This document shows, in pieces, positions 248-34,746 of a DNA stretch of 42,278 bases; the stretch's first letter is position 1; each line of letters starts with the position of its first letter. Source of the DNA: Fibrobacter sp. (GTDB lineage: Bacteria > Fibrobacterota > Fibrobacteria > Fibrobacterales > Fibrobacteraceae); the NCBI GenBank assembly GCA_024399065.1, contig JAKSIB010000031.1, forward strand, positions 1 through 42,278, in the 5' to 3' direction. The notes under the pieces are model-generated. The model saw only the letters and a list, made by a program, of their open reading frames with translations, did no database searches and was not told where the DNA came from. The position numbers and the translations under genes are program-made.

Positions 248-351
248 AAGACTTAATTTCTTGACTTCAATTATTGTTTATAAGGTTCCTACTCAAAATA
301 TAATTATTTCTACATCATACAGATTGTAATATTTTCTTTACATACCTTGCC

Positions 352-2110: not shown

Positions 2111-2485
2111 GTCAACTACGCACCGCATAAATGCGGTGAGCTTGTAAAGCCTTGACAAGTTTGCACAAGCAAGGACTTACATACGATTGGGCGGTTGACT
2201 CACGCCCTGCCCATCAAGTATGCGTAGTCATACGAGTTGGGATGGTTTGACTGCATTTCAGCAATCCGCTATACTCATAATGCATCTTGAATCCGTTATG
2301 TATGTGGCTACCGAATCCAATCAAACTGTTTTCTCGCCAAGCCACGAGCCTCTTTTGGACTTTTAGATGAGTGCCTTTTATTTCAGCAAGACTTTCAGCG
2401 TTATGCACAATATAGTTTATATTTTTCTAGTTGGCAAGTGGGAATTCCTAAGCCACCCTAAAGGGTGGCATCTTCCTGCCCACTA
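2111..2485 (-). mobile_element. IS200/IS605-like element without tnpB (element 2, MITE/PATE-like)
   Basis: This covers most of the 2036-2563 gap. Reading the minus strand, a left-end hairpin (2452-2469) with TTGCC arms is followed by about 270 bp without a convincing gene. It ends in a perfect hairpin CACCGCAT/ATGCGGTG (2121-2138) and then GTAGTTGAC. That is close to the GTAGTTCAA end of elements 3 and 4. A 64-codon frame (2214-2408) starts inside it but has no recognised domain. It looks like a shortened element that kept both ends and an internal transcript but lost the transposon protein genes. Boundaries are approximate. Confidence 0.55.
2409..2437 (-). promoter_or_regulatory. Candidate promoter inside element 2
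   Basis: Minus strand TTGCCA (2432-2437), 17 nt, TATATT (2409-2414). The -35 is formed by the TTGCC arm of the left-end structure. A transcript from here would cross the element to the right-end hairpin near 2121. A TATAAACT match (2414-2421) overlaps the spacer and may be coincidental. Confidence 0.45.
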
Positions 2486-2775: not shown

Positions 2776-3276
2776 CTACTTGCCGTATTTTTTCAGTTCG
2801 TCTGCAGTAAACAGCGGAATCCCATTCGTAGGAACGTAATTCAGAACCCCGTTGTCATCTGTTATGCAGAGGTCCGGATACAAAGTCTTGACAGACTTCA
2901 GGTAGAAATCATGCCAATCGCCATTGTATTCAATATAAAGGAAATTGTCAGGATACCGGTCCGGATTTTCTGTCAAATCCTTTACAACAAGCGAAATAAT
3001 GATAGACTTTCGCTTCTGATACAGCACATCAAATTCAGTATGAAAATTCGGCTTGTTAAGTGCAGCCATAGCGATATTCTCGATACCCGGCGGGTTACCG
3101 AAGAAGACTACATGGCGTCCAAAACGCATGCCATCCCGCAATTTAGGCCACCGACGGGCAATGCGCTTCCTCAGTTCATCTTCGAAGCTGATTTCATTAC
3201 GGTCGGCCTTCACGGTCTTCCAGACATAGATCCCGAATACAATCAAGAAACAGCTTACAACAATTGCATATACCAT
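2776..3276 (-). CDS. Membrane-anchored hypothetical protein
   Basis: 166 residues. The N-terminus is a single hydrophobic segment (about residues 2-19, YAIVVSCFLIVFGIYVW) followed by a basic, charged soluble part, so it is probably anchored in the inner membrane with most of the chain on one side. No cysteine lipobox and no recognised catalytic motif. It starts 3 nt after the DNA ligase stop and is followed at once by a strong terminator, so it is probably the last gene of the ligase transcript. Function unknown. Confidence 0.7.
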   Translation of the reverse strand: MVYAIVVSCFLIVFGIYVWKTVKADRNEISFEDELRKRIARRWPKLRDGMRFGRHVVFFGNPPGIENIAMAALNKPNFHTEFDVLYQKRKSIIISLVVKDLTENPDRYPDNFLYIEYNGDWHDFYLKSVKTLYPDLCITDDNGVLNYVPTNGIPLFTADELKKYGK

Positions 3277-15161: not shown

Positions 15162-18100
15162 TTATTCGGCCAATCCACCCCAGTCCACAGGGATCTGATT
15201 TAGTTCAGCTCTTCCGGATTCTGTATTGGTACCAGCATCTGTGAAACATCTGAAATAATCTGTTACTTTACCTGTTGATGAAGCTTGTTGATATAAATCT
15301 AACATACCAGATTGAATATTTTTACATTCTTCAAACATAGAATACATCTCAGTAACATTACTTGTATCAAATAATGGTACATTAGTCAATGAAGTACAGC
15401 CATTGAACATAGAAGACATATCATTAACCTTACTTGTATTAAATAATGGAACAGATGTTAATGAAGTACATCCATAGAACATATAAGACATAATAGTAAC
15501 ACTGCTTGTATCTCCAGCAGCAATAATCTGTATGTTTTTATCTAAATTTTCTGTTAATTTCATACCAAATTTATTTGACCAGTTAGTAACATTACAAGTC
15601 CAGTCCCAGTCATTAAATTCAGAATCTGTTACTTTAGTCCAAGTACCACCGTTTTCTATAACAGTTGGATTATAGTCAGTATTTTCAAATCTGAATCTTA
15701 ATGTATTCGCCGGCAATTCAACTTTTAAGCCACCCCAGTCCACAGGGATCTGTAGTCTGACCTCTTCACTGCCGCAATTAGTAAACGTATTATAATGCGA
15801 AACTGGTTTTTGTGTACCACCTTCTTCATACGTTTTGTCCTTCACACTATTATAGAACTCCAATGCACCTGCAGTCACACTTTCGCAATTACAGAACATA
15901 GTGCTCACATCATGTACGCTTGTAGTATCAAACAATGGAATTACAGACAACGATGAACACCCAAATAACATACCACTCATATTAGTTACATTTGATGTAT
16001 CAAATAGTGGGACAGTAGTTAACGATGTACAATTATCGAACATACTATGCATATCAGTTACATTTGATGTATCAAATAGTGGGACGTCAGTTAACGATGT
16101 ACATTCAAAGAACATACTACGCATACTTTGAACATTTGATGTATCAAATAGTGGGACAGTAGTTAGCGATGTACAATCCCTGAACATATAGTCTAGGTCA
16201 ACTAATGTTGTGCTAGGTAAAGTCAGTTTTGGCGCAGTAACTAGTGACGAGCACCCCTTAAACATATTCTTAAACGAATTGTCATCAGTTGCGTTACTCA
16301 AATCCAAGTCAGGTATTTTTTGCAGTGATGTACACCCACTGAACATTTCAAAAGCATACTCAACACTGTTTGTATCGATCGGTGCATCAATAGACACTAA
16401 TTGCGTACAATCTTGGAACAAATATTCCATGTGAATCACTGACGATGTATCACCTGCCAATATTAGCCGTGTTGGTGTATCAACAAGTGCGCCTTTCAAT
16501 GAGCTACTCCAGTAATTTTTATCATAATACCAATTCCAGTCGTTATATTCACTGTATGTAACCTTAGTCCAAGTACCGACGCTCGATATTGGGCGAACCT
16601 CCTCACTTACTTCCCCAGTCCAGTTATTTACTACGGTATACGTTTTTGCTGACGGGTCAAAATCAGGATCTTCGAACCTAAATCTGAGAGTATTGGCGGG
16701 CAACGGTAAACCACCCCAGTCCGTAGGGATCTGTTCCAAATCGTATAAGCCGCCGTTCGTATTTTTGCCACACAGAACGAATGTGTCATTATGCGATTCT
16801 ACTATTCCATCACTGGCAGATTCATACAACGCTAATGCGCCAGTTTCCACATTTTTACAATATGCGAACGCATTGTCCATTGCGGTTACATTACTCGTAT
16901 CGAGCAACGGGACCGCCGTTAACGATGTACATTCATAGCACAAATAACTCATATCAGTAACATTTACCGTATCAAACAACGGGAGTGCAGCTAATGACGT
17001 ACATTGGTAGAACATATCACGCATGGTAGTCACATTGCTCGTATCAAATAATGGCACTTCCGTCAATGATGTACACTTATTGAACATGAATTGCATATTT
17101 GTGACATTACTGGTGTCAAATAGAACTATCGAATCCAACGCCGAGCAAGCATCAAACATGCTATCCATATTGGTTACATCAAATGTATTACCTGCTTCGA
17201 TCATCGTGGCACGAGTAGTGGTAAATTTACGACTAAAGGCATCAGACCAGTCATTGTCGTCACAATGCCAATCCCACACACATCCGTCAGTACCATCATC
17301 TGACACCTTTACCCAGCTTCCTTTGTTTGAAGATGGAGTGTACGAATTATCATCAAAGTGGAAACGAAGCGTGTTGGCTGCAATATTTTCCATCAAACCA
17401 CCCCAGTCCTTAGGGATCTGCGTCAAGTCATACAAGCCAGACTCGTTATTACTTCCGCAATTAGTAAACATATGATAATGCATAGTCACGTTACCGGACT
17501 TAGCGAAATTATCGTATAATTCATACGCACCTTCGCTGACATTGATACAATCAGCAAACATTTCATCGCCATTGGTTAAAGATGGGAACAACGTTGTAGG
17601 CAAGCTAGTTAGGCCTACACATCCAGCAAACATATTTCTTCCGTCAGATAACTCGTTGAATACACCTTCAGGGATGCTAGTCAAGCTGACGCAATCTACA
17701 AACATACTCCGACCTATATGTATATTTGAACACAAGTCTACCGGAATACTTTCCAATAAAGTACAACCATAGAACATATTATCGGCGACTTCAGCTGCAG
17801 TAAACAATCCATCACAAATGCTAGTTAATCCCGAACAATTTTCAAACAAGGACGACGTACTCACGACATTTGACAAATCACCAGCTTTGATAATACTAAC
17901 ACAAGTTGTCTCATCAAATGCATCTATAAAAAGCCCATCAAAATGTTCTTCTTGAGCTGCAAAAGTCCAATCCCAGTCATTGTATGTACTGCTGTTTACT
18001 TTAGACCAAGTTCCGCCATTCTGAATTTCAGATGGGTCGTAGTTTTCATCTTCAAATCTAAAGCGAAGAGTATTAGCGGCAAGTTCTTCCTTCAAGCCGC

Positions 18101-18995
18101 CCCAGTCCTTAGGGATCTGCTTCAATTCAGCTAAGCCCGGGATACTCTTAATACCACAATTAGTAAACGTGTCCGTATGAGTTACGGTAGAATCCATCAT
18201 AGCCGTATACAAATCCAATGCACCAGAATTAACATTTTCACAATTTTTAAACATACTGTTCATGTTTACGCATTCCGGCAGATCCATATCAGGCACTTCG
18301 GTCAATGCAGTACAGCCATCAAACATGTTTTCAGCATATTTAACTTTAGACGTGTTTAAGCCCGGCGCCGTTGTCAATGCGGTACAATGATCGAACATAC
18401 CAGCCATTTTAGTTACACTACTCGTATCATAAACCGGGACAGTAGTCAGCGATTGGCAATACGAAAACATATTTATCATATTTTTTACAGAAGATGTATC
18501 CAAGTTTGGCGCAACGGTCAAATCGTCGCAATGATGAAACATCAGATGCATGTCAGTAACAGCATTTGTATGCTGCATATCAACAGTTATTAACTGTTTA
18601 CAGTTATCAAACATTTGGCTGGCATTACGTAAATTACTCACGTCATTCATCGTCACCGACTCTAAATTCATGCATGACATAAATAATTTTGACATATTAG
18701 TTACATCGGTCGTATTTCCATCAATGACGCTTACTGCATATCCAGTATTAAAACAATTGGCAAATTTACCTGTCCAATTGCGGGAGTCGTATCCCCATTT
18801 CCAGTCATTATATGCCGAGCCTTCCACACGGGTCCATGTTCCGCCATTCTCAATTTCAGATGGATCATAATTTTGATTGGAAAATCTAAATACTAAATAC
18901 TGGTTTTCCGCTACATTTTTTGAAAATTTAATGACCTTGTTGTTATGATCAAGATTCTTGCCTAAATGTTTCAGCACGAATGATTTCAAACCCAT
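15162..18995 (-). CDS. BspA-like leucine-rich-repeat protein (DUF285-type), five modules
   Basis: 1277 residues from the ATG at 18995 (AAGGG 7 nt upstream; an in-frame ATG at 19010 is the alternative). The chain is built of DTSNVTxMxxMFxxCTSL units, the BspA/DUF285 repeats that form a right-handed solenoid and mediate surface binding. They are grouped into five large modules (boundaries near 18098, 17398, 16711, 15731 and 15175). Each starts LRFRFEDxxYDPS...GGTWTKV...NDWxW and ends QIPxDWGGL. The first start is diverged (LVFRFSN). No signal peptide or membrane segment is seen, so it is more likely a virion component than a secreted protein. A TATAAACT motif like that of the fibre genes precedes it. 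Probable receptor-binding or adhesin role. Confidence 0.8.
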   Translation of the reverse strand: MGLKSFVLKHLGKNLDHNNKVIKFSKNVAENQYLVFRFSNQNYDPSEIENGGTWTRVEGSAYNDWKWGYDSRNWTGKFANCFNTGYAVSVIDGNTTDVTNMSKLFMSCMNLESVTMNDVSNLRNASQMFDNCKQLITVDMQHTNAVTDMHLMFHHCDDLTVAPNLDTSSVKNMINMFSYCQSLTTVPVYDTSSVTKMAGMFDHCTALTTAPGLNTSKVKYAENMFDGCTALTEVPDMDLPECVNMNSMFKNCENVNSGALDLYTAMMDSTVTHTDTFTNCGIKSIPGLAELKQIPKDWGGLKEELAANTLRFRFEDENYDPSEIQNGGTWSKVNSSTYNDWDWTFAAQEEHFDGLFIDAFDETTCVSIIKAGDLSNVVSTSSLFENCSGLTSICDGLFTAAEVADNMFYGCTLLESIPVDLCSNIHIGRSMFVDCVSLTSIPEGVFNELSDGRNMFAGCVGLTSLPTTLFPSLTNGDEMFADCINVSEGAYELYDNFAKSGNVTMHYHMFTNCGSNNESGLYDLTQIPKDWGGLMENIAANTLRFHFDDNSYTPSSNKGSWVKVSDDGTDGCVWDWHCDDNDWSDAFSRKFTTTRATMIEAGNTFDVTNMDSMFDACSALDSIVLFDTSNVTNMQFMFNKCTSLTEVPLFDTSNVTTMRDMFYQCTSLAALPLFDTVNVTDMSYLCYECTSLTAVPLLDTSNVTAMDNAFAYCKNVETGALALYESASDGIVESHNDTFVLCGKNTNGGLYDLEQIPTDWGGLPLPANTLRFRFEDPDFDPSAKTYTVVNNWTGEVSEEVRPISSVGTWTKVTYSEYNDWNWYYDKNYWSSSLKGALVDTPTRLILAGDTSSVIHMEYLFQDCTQLVSIDAPIDTNSVEYAFEMFSGCTSLQKIPDLDLSNATDDNSFKNMFKGCSSLVTAPKLTLPSTTLVDLDYMFRDCTSLTTVPLFDTSNVQSMRSMFFECTSLTDVPLFDTSNVTDMHSMFDNCTSLTTVPLFDTSNVTNMSGMLFGCSSLSVIPLFDTTSVHDVSTMFCNCESVTAGALEFYNSVKDKTYEEGGTQKPVSHYNTFTNCGSEEVRLQIPVDWGGLKVELPANTLRFRFENTDYNPTVIENGGTWTKVTDSEFNDWDWTCNVTNWSNKFGMKLTENLDKNIQIIAAGDTSSVTIMSYMFYGCTSLTSVPLFNTSKVNDMSSMFNGCTSLTNVPLFDTSNVTEMYSMFEECKNIQSGMLDLYQQASSTGKVTDYFRCFTDAGTNTESGRAELNQIPVDWGGLAE

Positions 18996-19025
18996 ATGGA
19001 TACCCTTCATTGGTAGTTTTCAAAT

Positions 19026-21085: not shown

Positions 21086-22774
21086 ATGGAGCCACACGAT
21101 CTACACCATATCTTGCACAAAAAGTGCGATCCCCGTGATGATCATCACCACCATCACCATCATCACCATTGTTGCCCGCATCCGGAGTATCCTCAACTCG
21201 GCCCGGTATATCACCCGGACCCGTTATGGATTCATCCGCCGTTCATGCCATGCTGCGGCTCTCCTACGACAACAAAGGTTTACAACTACGTCGACATAGT
21301 TGCTGGTGACAATATTGTAGTTACACCCGGTACACGTAATGGCATGAATGCGTTTAAGATTGATGCGCCTGAAATGATCGGCGTGACCGAGACTGACGAC
21401 GGAAAGGCTGGTGTAGTCCCTGCCCCGACTATTGACGACACGGATAAGTTCCTGAAGAGTGACGGAACTTGGGCAGTCCCGGACACGGGATTAGATGCTG
21501 TTCTAGTTGACGACAAGACCATAAAGGGTGACGGGGTCAACAGCGCACTGTATGCCGTTGAAATGACCGGTTCTTCCGAAAGTGCCGACGGTACATCTGG
21601 TATAGTTCCGGCACCGTCGGCGGCGGATTCCGACAAGTTCCTTAAAGGCGATGGCACATGGGCTACACCAGAAAGCGGAATAGACTCCATTCTTGTTGAT
21701 GACAAGACCATCAAGGGTGACGGCATCGAAACCGAACTCTATGCAGTCGAGATGACCGGCGCCACTGAGACCAAAGATGGTACCGCAGGTATCGTACCGG
21801 CCCCGACCGCAGCCCAGAAAGATTATTTCCTCGGGGCTGATGGCCAATGGCACGAGGTTGTGCAAGAGGTACTGGCTGACGGTGTTACTATCACCGGCAC
21901 AGGTGCCGAAGGAAGCGAACTTACAGCCGTTACAATGAAGGGTGCTACCGAGACTGAAGCCGGTAAGGCCGGTATAGTTCCGGCACCGAGTATCAATTCC
22001 GGTGACAAATTCTTGAAAGGTGACGGTACATGGGCAAATCCGAGCATCCAGACAGACGACGAGACCATCAAGGGTGACGGGGTAGAGACTCCACTATATG
22101 CAGTCGAAATGACCGGCGCCACTGAAACGGAAGCTGGCAAACCGGGAATCGTTCCGGCCCCAACAGAGAATGAACTCAGCAGCTACCTACGTAGTGACAA
22201 GATATGGGTACGGCACAGGGCATTTACATTTGATGAATTGGATGAAATCATCGACCCACCGAAACCGGATGAACCGCCGGTGATTATTGACGGCAAAGAA
22301 TACAAAACAGTGAGAATGCCGGATGATCGTGTTTGGATGGCGGTCAACTTGGATATGGAAACAGCTACCGGAAGCATTGCATCAAATAAGCATGATGAAA
22401 ACGAAGCATACGGTAGGCTATACCAATGGGATACCGCAATGGCAATTGCCAATTCGGTGGACGGCTGGCATATCCCGACTAAAGCTGAATGGGACGAGTT
22501 ATCAAATTATATAGGCGCCGACCCGACTGTTCTCATGGACAAATCATGGGATGCTGGTTCAGACTTATACGGATTTGGCGCATTACCCGCTGGATACTAC
22601 AATATTGATGTTGGCTATGCTGCTGTCGATTCCATGTCGGTATATTGGCTACCATCCGAAAGACCGAGTAGTGTAACAAACGCAATGTACATCGGGTTTA
22701 CATCATCAAATTTTGAATCATCGGACTACTACAAGACAACCTATTTTGCGGTGCGTTTAATCAAAGACAATTGA
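21086..22774 (+). CDS. Tail-fibre-type protein with His-rich N-terminus and FISUMP-like C-terminal domain
   Basis: 562 residues. The N-terminus is metal-ligand rich: nine histidines in a row, then CCPHP and PCCG. The middle has five repeats of about 60 residues containing GxAGIVPAPxxxxxDKFLKGDGTWA and DDKTIKGDG, a pattern typical of phage fibre shafts. The C-terminus (about 395-562: VRMPDDRVWMAVNLD, GRLYQWDTAM, GWHIPTKAEWDEL, GFGALPAGY, FAVRLIKD) resembles the Fibrobacter succinogenes major paralogous (FISUMP) domain, related to C-type-lectin-like folds used for binding. Probably a receptor-binding virion protein. Its stop codon TGA lies inside the right end of the inserted element 3. AGAGG is 6 nt before the ATG. 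Confidence 0.8.
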   Translation: MEPHDLHHILHKKCDPRDDHHHHHHHHHCCPHPEYPQLGPVYHPDPLWIHPPFMPCCGSPTTTKVYNYVDIVAGDNIVVTPGTRNGMNAFKIDAPEMIGVTETDDGKAGVVPAPTIDDTDKFLKSDGTWAVPDTGLDAVLVDDKTIKGDGVNSALYAVEMTGSSESADGTSGIVPAPSAADSDKFLKGDGTWATPESGIDSILVDDKTIKGDGIETELYAVEMTGATETKDGTAGIVPAPTAAQKDYFLGADGQWHEVVQEVLADGVTITGTGAEGSELTAVTMKGATETEAGKAGIVPAPSINSGDKFLKGDGTWANPSIQTDDETIKGDGVETPLYAVEMTGATETEAGKPGIVPAPTENELSSYLRSDKIWVRHRAFTFDELDEIIDPPKPDEPPVIIDGKEYKTVRMPDDRVWMAVNLDMETATGSIASNKHDENEAYGRLYQWDTAMAIANSVDGWHIPTKAEWDELSNYIGADPTVLMDKSWDAGSDLYGFGALPAGYYNIDVGYAAVDSMSVYWLPSERPSSVTNAMYIGFTSSNFESSDYYKTTYFAVRLIKDN

Positions 22775-22900
22775 ACTACCCACACGCTAAAGACGTGTGG
22801 GTTTCCACAACATCAGCGTGTATGATTTCCGAGGCTGCTCCCCTAACGGGGTGCATAGAATCCTCGGCGTAAATTTCGGCTGTCCGAGCCGTATTGTTTA
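22771..22900 (-). ncRNA. Candidate omega RNA (reRNA) at the 3' end of tnpB
   Basis: TnpB guides usually come from RNA covering the gene's 3' end and the transposon right end. Here this stretch folds well: a CCGAGG/CCTCGG stem (22829-22834 with 22862-22867) encloses a CCCC/GGGG hairpin with a TAAC loop, and the right-end hairpin follows. These lie inside the tnpB coding frame. The 5' limit is a guess. Confidence 0.5.
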
Positions 22901-23996
22901 ACTTGAATGCGAACTTCTTGATGTTCCGTGCAGCAAGAAGGTCACGCTGGTTTACAGCACCACAAGCGGGACAGGTCCATACACGGTCGGACAGTTTAAG
23001 CCCCCTGTGTACGTGACCGCAAGAACACATCTTGCTAGACGGCTCAAACCTACCTATACGGATAATGTTCTTACCATACCATTCTGCCTTGTAGTCCATA
23101 TAGACATTGAACGTTCCAATGCTTATGTCGGACAACGCTTGTGCAAGCCTATGGTTTTTGAGCATATTGCTTGCGGAGAGTGTTTCAAGACAGATAGTGT
23201 CGTAGTGGTCTATCAAATACTTGCTAGTCTTGTGCAGGAAATCCTTACGCTTATTCGTAACCTTCTCGTACTGACGGGCGAGCAACTTGACCGCTTTCTT
23301 TCGGCTGTTGCTGCCCTTCTTCTTGCGAGAAACAGAGCGTTGCAAGCGTTTCAACCGCTTCAAGGCTTTCTTCAAGTATTTGGGGTTCTGTATTTCGGTT
23401 CCGTCACTCAAGGTAGCAAACGTCTTGATGCCCAAGTCCACACCGACCGCTTTGTTCTCGTCTATCGGTACTTTGTTAGGAATGGTGTCTTCAGTTTCCA
23501 CAAGAATGGATATGAAATACTTGCCCGTGGGTGTCCTACTTATTGTGCTTGTCTTAATCTTTCCTTTGAAATGTCTATCGAATCTGCATTTGATACCTTC
23601 CTTGAACTTCGGCAGATACACCCGCTTGGCTTCGTAGTCCACTTTGGTGTTCTGCGGAACTTGGAAGGACTGATGATTGTCGTGCTTCGCCTTGAACTTC
23701 GGGAAGCCTTTCCGCTCTTTGAAGAATCGTGTAAACGCCATATCCAAGTTCAGCAGGGCTGCTTGTAAAGAAAGTGAATTGACTTCGGTGAGCCACTTGG
23801 TTGCCTCGGCTTTCTTCAACTTCGGCAGGTCGGCTTGTATGGTGAAGCGTGACACACTTTTCTTGGTTTCGGAATAGGACTTTATTTTCCGTTCAAGCCC
23901 GTAGTTGTAGATGTATCGGGCACACCCAAAGTGCTTGGATAGCAGCACTTCTTGTGTCTTTGTCGGATAGAGCCGATATTTGTACGCCTTCAACAT
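22776..23996 (-). CDS. tnpB: TnpB, RNA-guided endonuclease of IS200/IS605 elements
   Basis: 406 residues from the second of two adjacent ATGs (AGG 5 nt upstream of it). It starts MLKAYKYRLYPT, as in OrfB_IS605 proteins. The split RuvC nuclease residues are present: GVDLGIKTFATL (D187), ICLETLSASNM (E271) and NQRDLLAARNIK (D352). A zinc finger with C324, C326, C342 and C345 lies between the last two. The protein uses omega RNA to cleave DNA next to a short motif and promotes retention of the element. The frame runs through the right-end hairpin, and its TAG is part of GTAGTTCAA. It looks intact. Confidence 0.95.
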   Translation of the reverse strand: MLKAYKYRLYPTKTQEVLLSKHFGCARYIYNYGLERKIKSYSETKKSVSRFTIQADLPKLKKAEATKWLTEVNSLSLQAALLNLDMAFTRFFKERKGFPKFKAKHDNHQSFQVPQNTKVDYEAKRVYLPKFKEGIKCRFDRHFKGKIKTSTISRTPTGKYFISILVETEDTIPNKVPIDENKAVGVDLGIKTFATLSDGTEIQNPKYLKKALKRLKRLQRSVSRKKKGSNSRKKAVKLLARQYEKVTNKRKDFLHKTSKYLIDHYDTICLETLSASNMLKNHRLAQALSDISIGTFNVYMDYKAEWYGKNIIRIGRFEPSSKMCSCGHVHRGLKLSDRVWTCPACGAVNQRDLLAARNIKKFAFKLNNTARTAEIYAEDSMHPVRGAASEIIHADVVETHTSLACG

Positions 23997-24048
23997 CATA
24001 ACCTAAATATATACTATTCTTTAATGAAATACAAACGGTCTCTCTAAA

Positions 24049-24056
24049 AGTTTATA
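24049..24056 (-). promoter_or_regulatory. TATAAACT match upstream of tnpB
   Basis: Minus-strand TATAAACT 53 nt before the tnpB start. It matches the motif ahead of the phage late genes, but it may be chance in AT-rich DNA. Confidence 0.3.
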
Positions 24057-24070
24057 TCACTATAACTGTT

Positions 24071-24113
24071 GGCAATTCAACCCACCCACTGAAGATGGGT
24101 GGGATTTCTTGCC
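24071..24113 (-). repeat. Left-end hairpin of element 3
   Basis: CCCACCCA (24081-24088) pairs with TGGGTGGG (24096-24103), inside GGCAA/TTGCC arms. The same GGCAAGAAA...TGAATTGCC frame, with a different inner stem, occurs at 33665-33707. Confidence 0.75.
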
Positions 24114-24123
24114 TACTTCGTTA

Positions 24124-24154
24124 AAAACTCACGGGCGCTCTGTCCGTGAGTTTT
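24124..24154 (+). terminator. Rho-independent terminator, separated from its gene by element 3
   Basis: An 11-bp perfect stem AAAACTCACGG/CCGTGAGTTTT (24124-24134, 24144-24154). It probably belonged to the fibre gene ending at 22774 before the insertion. The rest of the 24000-24232 gap holds the element left end and a promoter motif. Confidence 0.8.
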
Positions 24155-24168
24155 CTTGTCGCACGTAT

Positions 24169-24176
24169 TATAAACT
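24169..24176 (+). promoter_or_regulatory. Putative late promoter motif TATAAACT (giant fibre gene)
   Basis: TATAAACT directly after the terminator at 24124-24154 and 56 nt before the ATG at 24233. Confidence 0.6.
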
Positions 24177-24232
24177 ACCAATGAATGTAACAAAGTCTAT
24201 AGTTGCAAAAACTTTAGAAAGGTAGTCTAGAT

Positions 24233-33648: not shown

Positions 33649-33656
33649 AGTTTATA
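33649..33656 (-). promoter_or_regulatory. Putative late promoter motif TATAAACT (gene 32705-33532)
   Basis: Minus-strand TATAAACT about 117 nt before the chosen start, immediately next to the left end of element 4. Confidence 0.45.
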
Positions 33657-33709
33657 TAAAATGTGGCAAGAAAACTCACGGGTCTTTAGCCAGTGAGATG
33701 AATTGCCGC

Positions 33710-33738
33710 TTGACAAATGAAATGATATATTCTATATT
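33710..33738 (+). promoter_or_regulatory. Sigma-70-type promoter inside element 4
   Basis: TTGACA (33710-33715), 17 nt, TATATT (33733-33738), pointing into the structured part of the element. It is the same perfect promoter as those of ligA and the helicase. Confidence 0.75.
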
Positions 33739-33744
33739 GTATAA

Positions 33745-33922
33745 CAAAGGTTTTCAAACGCATATCTTGAGTATGCAGTACCTAAGGGACTTAGGGAAGG
33801 GTTCGCCTGAAAAAACCCATAGCGTCGGAAACTGATACAACCGCATGGTTGTGGATTAAACGAAGCCTGTAGTGCCACGGATGGGCATGGGGAACCCCAC
33901 CCATCTTCAGTGGGTAGTTCAA
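33745..33922 (+). ncRNA. Candidate omega-RNA-like structured transcript of element 4
   Basis: The segment starts about 7 nt after the -10 box and ends at the element right end. It contains CCTAAG/CTTAGG and ACAACC/GGTTGT hairpins, GAAGCCTGTAG, and the terminal right-end hairpin. No long open frame crosses it. By analogy with TnpB elements its 3' end would extend into flanking DNA as a guide. The exact ends are not known. Confidence 0.5.
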
Positions 33923-34746
33923 GAATCCATAATGTTACCATACCCGTGCATTATACCCTTATATCCATTTGTCCCCTCAGGGCGCACGATAGAATATATA
34001 GGGGTAACATAGGTATGCTCTGCTCGCCAAACGATGGCTACGCCGGCCATATACGCTATCCAATTCTGTTTTCCACTGTCGTTGAACTCAAGATCGACTT
34101 GTGACTGGGATACCCACCCGGCGATCGGCACCATTAGAAAATCATGCGATACAAACACACCCATCTTCTTAGTGCCAAGTGCGTCATACAGATCGGAAAT
34201 CAGCTGTAATGCCACAGTATCCTTATCATTGAATTTAGCCTTGTCCGATTCTGACAAACTGTCATAATTAATCGAATACTTCGATACCAGAGGCCAGCTA
34301 GTCACACTGTTAGTAAACAGACTACCAGCTATATTGTCCTTATGTGTCAAATCAATACTATCCAGAGTAGTATAATCAGTATCCCCACGGCCCATGGCAA
34401 AATACTGTGCGGTCTGCCTAGTCCTCATTGTACTCGTAGACCCGTAAATTACGTCGTTTACCTGTGCAATGCCACCCTGCATGGATTCACCTACGGCAAG
34501 TGCATATTCTTTACCTGCATCGGTCAATTCAGCAGCAGAGCTGGTGTCAGATGGACGTTCCGAATGACGCATCAGGAATACGACACGGTCGTCCGGTTCA
34601 AGTGACTGGTACACCGTCTGTATATAGTTGAACTCATCCAAGGCAAACCCCGGAAGCGGTTCCGGTGGAAGATGTTCCGGTTCAGGTTTCGGCAGTTTTG
34701 CAAATTGTCCAGATACCCGAATATAATGCCCGTCATACCGTATCAT
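33919..34746 (-). CDS. Histidine phosphatase domain fused to a short tail-type N-terminus
   Basis: 275 residues. The first 18 (MIRYDGHYIRVSGQFAKL) look like the starts of the next tail genes. A Pro/Glu-rich linker (KPEPEHLPPEPLPG) follows, then a histidine phosphatase domain with VVFLMRHSERP (H61 as the probable phosphate acceptor), STSTMRTRQTA and FVSHDF. It removes phosphate from an unknown substrate through a phospho-histidine. Its place at the end of a fibre operon suggests a virion-attached enzyme. Its TGA stop lies in the right end of element 4, so the native C-terminus may have been altered. ATGA overlap with the gene upstream. Confidence 0.8.
   Translation of the reverse strand: MIRYDGHYIRVSGQFAKLPKPEPEHLPPEPLPGFALDEFNYIQTVYQSLEPDDRVVFLMRHSERPSDTSSAAELTDAGKEYALAVGESMQGGIAQVNDVIYGSTSTMRTRQTAQYFAMGRGDTDYTTLDSIDLTHKDNIAGSLFTNSVTSWPLVSKYSINYDSLSESDKAKFNDKDTVALQLISDLYDALGTKKMGVFVSHDFLMVPIAGWVSQSQVDLEFNDSGKQNWIAYMAGVAIVWRAEHTYVTPIYSIVRPEGTNGYKGIMHGYGNIMDS

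Follow-up and report, generated by a model that had tools for sequence, protein, structure and literature searches.

A 267-bp mini-element of the IS605 type, devoid of tnpB, in a contig of a Fibrobacter sp. metagenome-assembled genome (C31; the window, i.e. the whole 42,278-nt stretch of DNA analysed here) carries what comparison with its relatives identifies as a complete TnpB omega-RNA scaffold behind a strong promoter. By its anatomy as read from the DNA, the mini-element is a PATE: it lacks a transposase gene, has palindromes near both ends, and these ends are related to those of an IS605-type element. We consider it moderately probable that it derives from a TnpB-carrying IS605-type element by an internal deletion that spared the promoter region and the whole omega RNA. 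That the retained omega RNA still works and directs a TnpB in trans to the empty site, for which we infer both expression and trans use, seems to us about equally probable. The element and its insertion site comprise the following features.

33651..33655, plus strand: TTTAT, inferred target or transposon-adjacent motif (TAM), from the motif in relatives and a flank join that restores the neighbour gene
33656..33922, plus strand: whole tnpB-less IS605-type mini-element, 267 bp, with ends matching TnpB elements on contig C5 and supported by the empty-site test
33665..33707, plus strand: left-end hairpin, GGCAAGAAAACTCACGGG..GAATTGCC, with counterparts in the C5 elements, in L034 and in the phage minis L158, L160 and L173
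33710..33738, plus strand: sigma-70-type promoter TTGACA-N17-TATATT, start expected near 33745, by match to the phage consensus
33778..33922, plus strand: omega-RNA scaffold, about 145 nt, by covariance model R1
33781..33795, plus strand: 5′ hairpin CCUAA-GGGAC-UUAGG with its loop in the pseudoknot, by homologous position and covariation
33799..33818, plus strand: second hairpin GGGUU..AACCC, its position shared with the C5 elements, its sequence different
33836..33853, plus strand: third hairpin UACAACC-GCAU-GGUUGUG, at the position of GGUGUG-GUUG-CACACC in the C5 elements
33899..33915, plus strand: right-end hairpin with a stem of 5 bp against 10 in the model, by alignment to R1
33916..33920, plus strand: AGUUC, 3′ strand of the pseudoknot pairing with the GGGAC loop, by the pseudoknot columns in 28 RNAs
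33923..33938, plus strand: predicted guide, 16 nt of flanking DNA, positioned as in ISDra2 (PMC8612924)
33919..34746, minus strand: histidine-phosphatase-like gene that takes its stop codon TGA from the right end of the element, by ORF, domain and empty-site test

The ends of the mini-element most resemble those of TnpB elements on C5, with 92 % identity over 59 nt between its left end and C5:94573-94515, the left end of a TnpB element, and 93 % identity over 54 nt between 33862-33915 and C5:55771-55824 on the right. The likeness to the window's own tnpB element at 22771-24120, on which the initial annotation had relied, is real but weaker (82 % over 33 nt on the left, 77 % over 39 nt on the right). 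The left-end hairpin consists of an outer stem GGCAA..TTGCC and an inner stem CTCAC/GTGAG with one mismatch beside the latter, while the right-end hairpin stands 7 nt 5′ of the predicted guide, within the 10 nt expected for an omega RNA, and the right terminus reads TTCAA. The left-end mismatch and the right-end stem reduced to 5 bp could be signs of decay. As initially annotated, 33656-33922 holds no protein gene; its ORFs of 69-70 aa look like products of chance, and of the old tnpB there remain 18 codons of the tail.

Joining the flanks as TTTAT to GAATCC, with no duplication, yields the same 275-aa neighbour protein (..GNIMDS*), the element merely exchanging its stop TAA for TGA. By this empty-site test, 33656-33922 is a better fit than the originally proposed interval 33658-33922. 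A corresponding join at the tnpB element at 22771 restores the neighbour there with one residue changed (N for K). TTTATA or a similar sequence precedes the left end in most family members, and the TTTAT of the left flank, shared by the relatives, lies beside the predicted target; the empty site addressed by the guide is predicted to read TTTAT-GAATCCATAATGTTACC. The guide, GAATCCATAATGTTAC, was found nowhere else in the assembly, where three sites with two mismatches all lack the motif; a search through the flanking genes returned no empty-site relative of the phage. The neighbouring gene encodes a phage histidine-phosphatase domain, homologues of which occur several times over in every genome of the host genus. 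Other elements at gene borders (C5:82896, L129:449 and C5:58008) also supply start or stop codons: TTCATG gives the ATG of a DnaJ-like gene, and TTACGCTGA gives stops in the TTAC-motif family.

The case for an omega RNA was examined with a covariance model, R1, built from four omega RNAs of TnpB-bearing elements, the mini-element being left out. This comparison, proposed with the initial annotation, recovered the mini-element at 55.5 bits (E 3.7e-14), and the omega RNA of the TnpB at 22776 at 44.6 bits (E 6.8e-11). A sequence-only model gave 53.4 and 20.3 bits, respectively; structure thus adds only about 2 bits to the score of the mini-element, which is mostly due to sequence, whereas that of the RNA of TnpB 22776 is mostly due to structure. 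With this match and the 18 tail codons, the segment is homologous to the 3′ end of tnpB plus the right end, as an omega RNA should be. Neither the window nor nine element loci matched an Rfam family at gathering score.

The segment had been called hairpin-rich, a description that survives in part. Its fold energy is not unusual (z -1.2), and we rejected fold energy or hairpin-richness alone as evidence of a structured RNA. What is unusual is that the 91-nt segment has three hairpins where the C5 RNAs have them, with the sequence exchanged, an arrangement equalled in 7 of 2000 shuffles. Across 28 aligned related RNAs, 94 % of the cells pair, compared to 29-44 % when slid, and both partners have changed in 41 of the 42 pairs, although this alignment was fitted to the covariance model and hence leans towards it. 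The 5′ hairpin, which lies outside the model, covaries in all five of its pairs (5/5). The loop of this hairpin, GG(R)AC, is the partner of the right-end AGUUC, and in the 28 RNAs the columns of this pseudoknot are 96 % paired, with changes on both sides in 4/4 pairs. The loop-to-end pseudoknot corresponds to that of the ISDra2 TnpB omega RNA, in which base pairing links nucleotides -5 to -3 with nucleotides -103 to -105 (PMC10097598). For a structured RNA we regard this comparative evidence of model match, covariation and pseudoknot as decisive, and by its predicted structure the segment is a member of the TnpB omega-RNA family.

The former tnpB reading frame is left in 18 codons only, which read EACSATDGHGEPHPSSVG where the C5 TnpB has EACNATDGHGETHPSLVG; further upstream the frame gives ST*GT*G in place of the NTSGTEG of TnpB. 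In the 5′ hairpin, the substitution of CUCA/UGAG by CUAA/UUAG keeps the pairing while putting TAA and TAG into the old frame, so that the RNA structure seems to have persisted beyond the loss of that frame. This suggests selection on the RNA after frame loss but is no proof of it, because there are relatives whose tnpB stops short of the RNA. Elements with the segment as the coding 3′ end of tnpB, which had been named as grounds for abandoning the interpretation, do exist among the relatives; since an overlap with the end of tnpB is normal for TnpB guide RNAs, they speak for descent by internal deletion rather than for a misreading.

The promoter noted at the outset is present, with TTGACA beginning at 33710 and TATATT at 33733-33738, and agrees in 12/12 positions with the apparent phage promoter consensus; TTGACA-N17-TATATT recurs 5′ of many apparent gene starts in the phage. 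Of random 120-nt stretches of phage sequence, 0.7 % reach a score of at least 11, and the element's promoter has a P of 0.004. Three tnpB-less minis in this phage score 12/12 (33656-33922), 11/12 (2113-2470) and 12/12 (C5:57738-58005), whereas the scores of thirteen further elements having ends of these kinds, the majority with tnpB, range over 9-11 and reach 11 in one case. In tnpB elements the -35 box is often TTGCCA, within or just past the left-end palindrome, which points to a promoter inherited from tnpB that is strongest in the minis. An IMG/VR search for the left end plus promoter gave one match, a full tnpB element, likewise indicating that the promoter was originally that of tnpB.

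C31 shares its tetranucleotide signature with C5 (164 kb), C15 (87 kb) and C57 (13 kb) at r 0.92-0.96, while five sampled host contigs differ from these four (r 0.33-0.51). Together the four contigs encode terminase, tail sheath, baseplate wedge, UvsX, SbcC, NrdD, PhoH and DNA ligase. On the basis of composition and binning, they are treated here as one myovirus-like phage of about 300 kb, probably a large rumen-type phage of Fibrobacter. The shared, host-unlike composition would place active-looking TnpBs in the same phage as the mini-element. Elsewhere in the window, 15162-19010 encodes a 1282-aa phage protein built of repeated DUF285/BspA leucine-rich repeats, and the ORF 21086-22774 carries a FISUMP-like domain adjoining repeats, a phage protein resembling a host protein family; together with the host homologues of the phosphatase gene, this domain points to Fibrobacter as the probable host genus. 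The contig begins (1-400, minus strand) within a repeat whose product is a TnpB-like protein of 426 aa and of which C15:29366 and C5:150359 have copies, which is probably the reason for the assembly break. Three features concern candidate partners and a further mini.

22776..23999, minus strand: intact TnpB, a more distant relative of the cognate one, with Pfam OrfB_IS605 and Cas12f1-like_TNB and the RuvC residues
22771..22894, minus strand: omega RNA of TnpB 22776, with the architecture seen in the mini-element, by R1
2113..2470, minus strand: second tnpB-less mini in the window, ends approximate, TTGCCA-N17-TATATT, with a left-end hairpin at 2452-2469

At least three intact TnpBs of the family are encoded by the phage (C31:22776-23999, C5:82900-84147 and C5:92944-94191), with the RuvC residues D, E and D conserved, and the C5 TnpB matches ISDra2 TnpB in the PDB with an E of 6e-76. 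The notion of a stand-alone omega RNA usable in trans gains support from homology, the fold with its compensatory changes, the pseudoknot and the promoter; the partner originally named for it, TnpB 22776, fares less well. The omega RNAs nearest to that of the mini-element belong to TnpBs on C5, and as R1, the model made from them, scores the mini-element above the omega RNA of TnpB 22776, the two C5 TnpBs are, by RNA similarity, probably the better cognate candidates. The assembly yielded a single Y1 TnpA, carried by an element with ends of another family, leaving the mini-element with no evident transposase.

Several tnpB elements show peculiarities of their own. The one at 22771 has two nested left ends (24071-24186), CTCACGG..CCGTGAG and CCCACCC..GGGTGGG, a pattern suggestive of insertion of one element into a second or of recombination between the two. 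The tnpB leaders at C5 ~84150-84240 (minus), C15 ~3160-3257 (plus) and L129 ~255-350 (minus) look able to form an H-type pseudoknot; judged by eye, these lie just 5′ of the start codon, keep one architecture with different sequence across tnpB families and are missing from the minis, and they are possibly regulatory leaders. At C5:84958-86492 (= L026:4958-6492, minus strand), an element that shares these ends, its right end being omega-like, has a DUF285/BspA leucine-rich-repeat gene in place of tnpB, as cargo in a TnpB element.

A search for other copies, as had been suggested, revealed two further tnpB-less minis with near-identical promoters in the phage. The RNA of the mini at 2113-2470, about 290 nt with a right-end hairpin ending CGTAGTTGA, was matched by neither R1 nor R3. 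The mini at C5:57738-58005 (= L024:17738-18005, minus strand; TTGACA-N17-TATATT) belongs to a second omega-RNA family, being found with 34.2 bits (E 4.6e-7) by R3, a model made from TnpB-bearing relatives. Close DNA relatives were absent from 50,697 phage records, and among 60 host relatives only the metagenome-assembled genome itself was found. Exact omega plus left-end patterns picked out a single contig in IMG/VR, L034/L036, whose TnpB is 93 % identical, and the right-end pattern hit 24 IMG/VR stretches, several of them without tnpB where the upstream sequence suffices. In unrelated phages, L158, L160/L161 and L173 combine left-end hairpin, omega RNA and right end without tnpB; an identity of 96-100 % between their RNAs and those of elements with tnpB marks them as recent, independent deletions. 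L063 and L084 contain further tnpB-less omega RNAs. The strong promoter is absent from all tnpB-less minis of other phages.

Action in trans is the most likely use of the mini-element RNA that these data suggest. RNA polymerase would start near 33745 and read through the right end, producing an omega RNA in which the terminal ~16-20 nt are transcribed from the phage DNA next to the element. A TnpB from another phage element, most likely one of C5, would bind this RNA, and the complex would cut TTTAT-GAATCCATAATG... in sibling genomes without the element, where repair from the occupied copy would restore it at the cut site. The element would thereby keep its place and could spread to related phages without a cost in coding capacity.

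It is rather unlikely, in our estimation, that the element is an ordinary PATE in decay, a passive product of deletion that depends for any movement on a TnpA acting in trans, with the omega RNA retained through its overlap with the right end and the promoter a tnpB leftover. Such core-deletion PATEs are well known (PMC3119063), including a 271-nt case in Halanaerobium (PMC7290912), and L158, L160 and L173 demonstrate how recently such deletions occur; weaker promoters at the same place in tnpB elements, the left-end mismatch and the short right-end stem fit as well. Passive decay, however, sits poorly with the retention of all omega-RNA hairpins and the pseudoknot despite strong sequence change, with a compensatory pair that breaks the tnpB frame, with promoters of 11-12/12 in all three phage minis compared to 1/13 of the other elements, and with a sole Y1 TnpA of the wrong end family.

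A guide or antisense RNA regulating phage genes, for instance one antisense to the phosphatase gene 33919-34746 or a TldR-like repressor, is improbable. The strong promoter and a transcript entering that gene on the opposite strand would suit it, but its protein is unchanged by the insertion. The guide of a TldR-type repressor matches a promoter beside a TAM, and its partner TnpB is catalytically dead; here, the guide has no second motif-bearing target in the assembly, among host or phage genes, and the TnpBs keep their catalytic residues. For the suggestion that the phage adopted the RNA gene for itself we found nothing in support. It is very improbable that the fragment is inert and owes its promoter and fold to chance, as the unremarkable overall fold energy is outweighed by the covariance and model evidence, the promoter P and the recurrence in two more minis.

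Beyond this single locus, we tentatively suggest, with somewhat less than even confidence, a class of phage mobile guide-RNA genes that are nuclease-free, have their own phage-type promoter, share the phage TnpB pool in trans and home each to their own empty site. If so, one nuclease would be served by several guide loci in one phage, an array-like arrangement resembling CRISPR but built from transposons. Used in trans, the mini-element would represent a phage homing element of <300 bp without a gene of its own and a natural split of TnpB systems into nuclease and guide loci. A separation of this kind has been proposed to underlie the transition of omega RNA towards tracrRNA/crRNA and CRISPR arrays. 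With minis and TnpB-bearing copies side by side, the question of trans use becomes testable in one system.

Among known systems, stand-alone trans-acting omega RNAs were reportedly described for IscB (Altae-Tran 2021); like the mini-element they have no nuclease gene and are proposed to act in trans, but they concern IscB and the bacterial chromosome, whereas the mini-element concerns TnpB and a phage. The TnpB elements at C5:82900-84147 and C5:92944-94191 share its ends, motif and omega-RNA architecture and differ in possessing a 415-aa tnpB with a structured leader. The omega RNA (reRNA) of ISDra2 has the same right-end-derived scaffold, pseudoknot between 5′ loop and 3′ end, UUUA-type right-end hairpin loop and flanking-DNA guide, yet is made in cis with the tnpB gene that the mini-element has lost (PMC8612924, PMC10097598). 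PATEs formed by core deletion, as in Haloquadratum (PMC3119063), likewise lack tnpA and tnpB and consist of ends only, as does the 271-nt PATE of Halanaerobium hydrogeniformans, which keeps 28 nt of the left end, 58 nt of tnpB and 160 nt of the right end, thus retaining the tnpB 3′ end and right end as the mini-element does, and whose description does not mention a guide RNA (PMC7290912). The mini-element departs from PATEs as portrayed in these accounts by its full omega-RNA fold, the strong promoter 5′ of it and its phage location beside intact TnpBs. New here are the demonstrated conservation of the fold, the strong promoter and the coexistence, within a single phage, of several TnpBs and several loci that encode a guide only.
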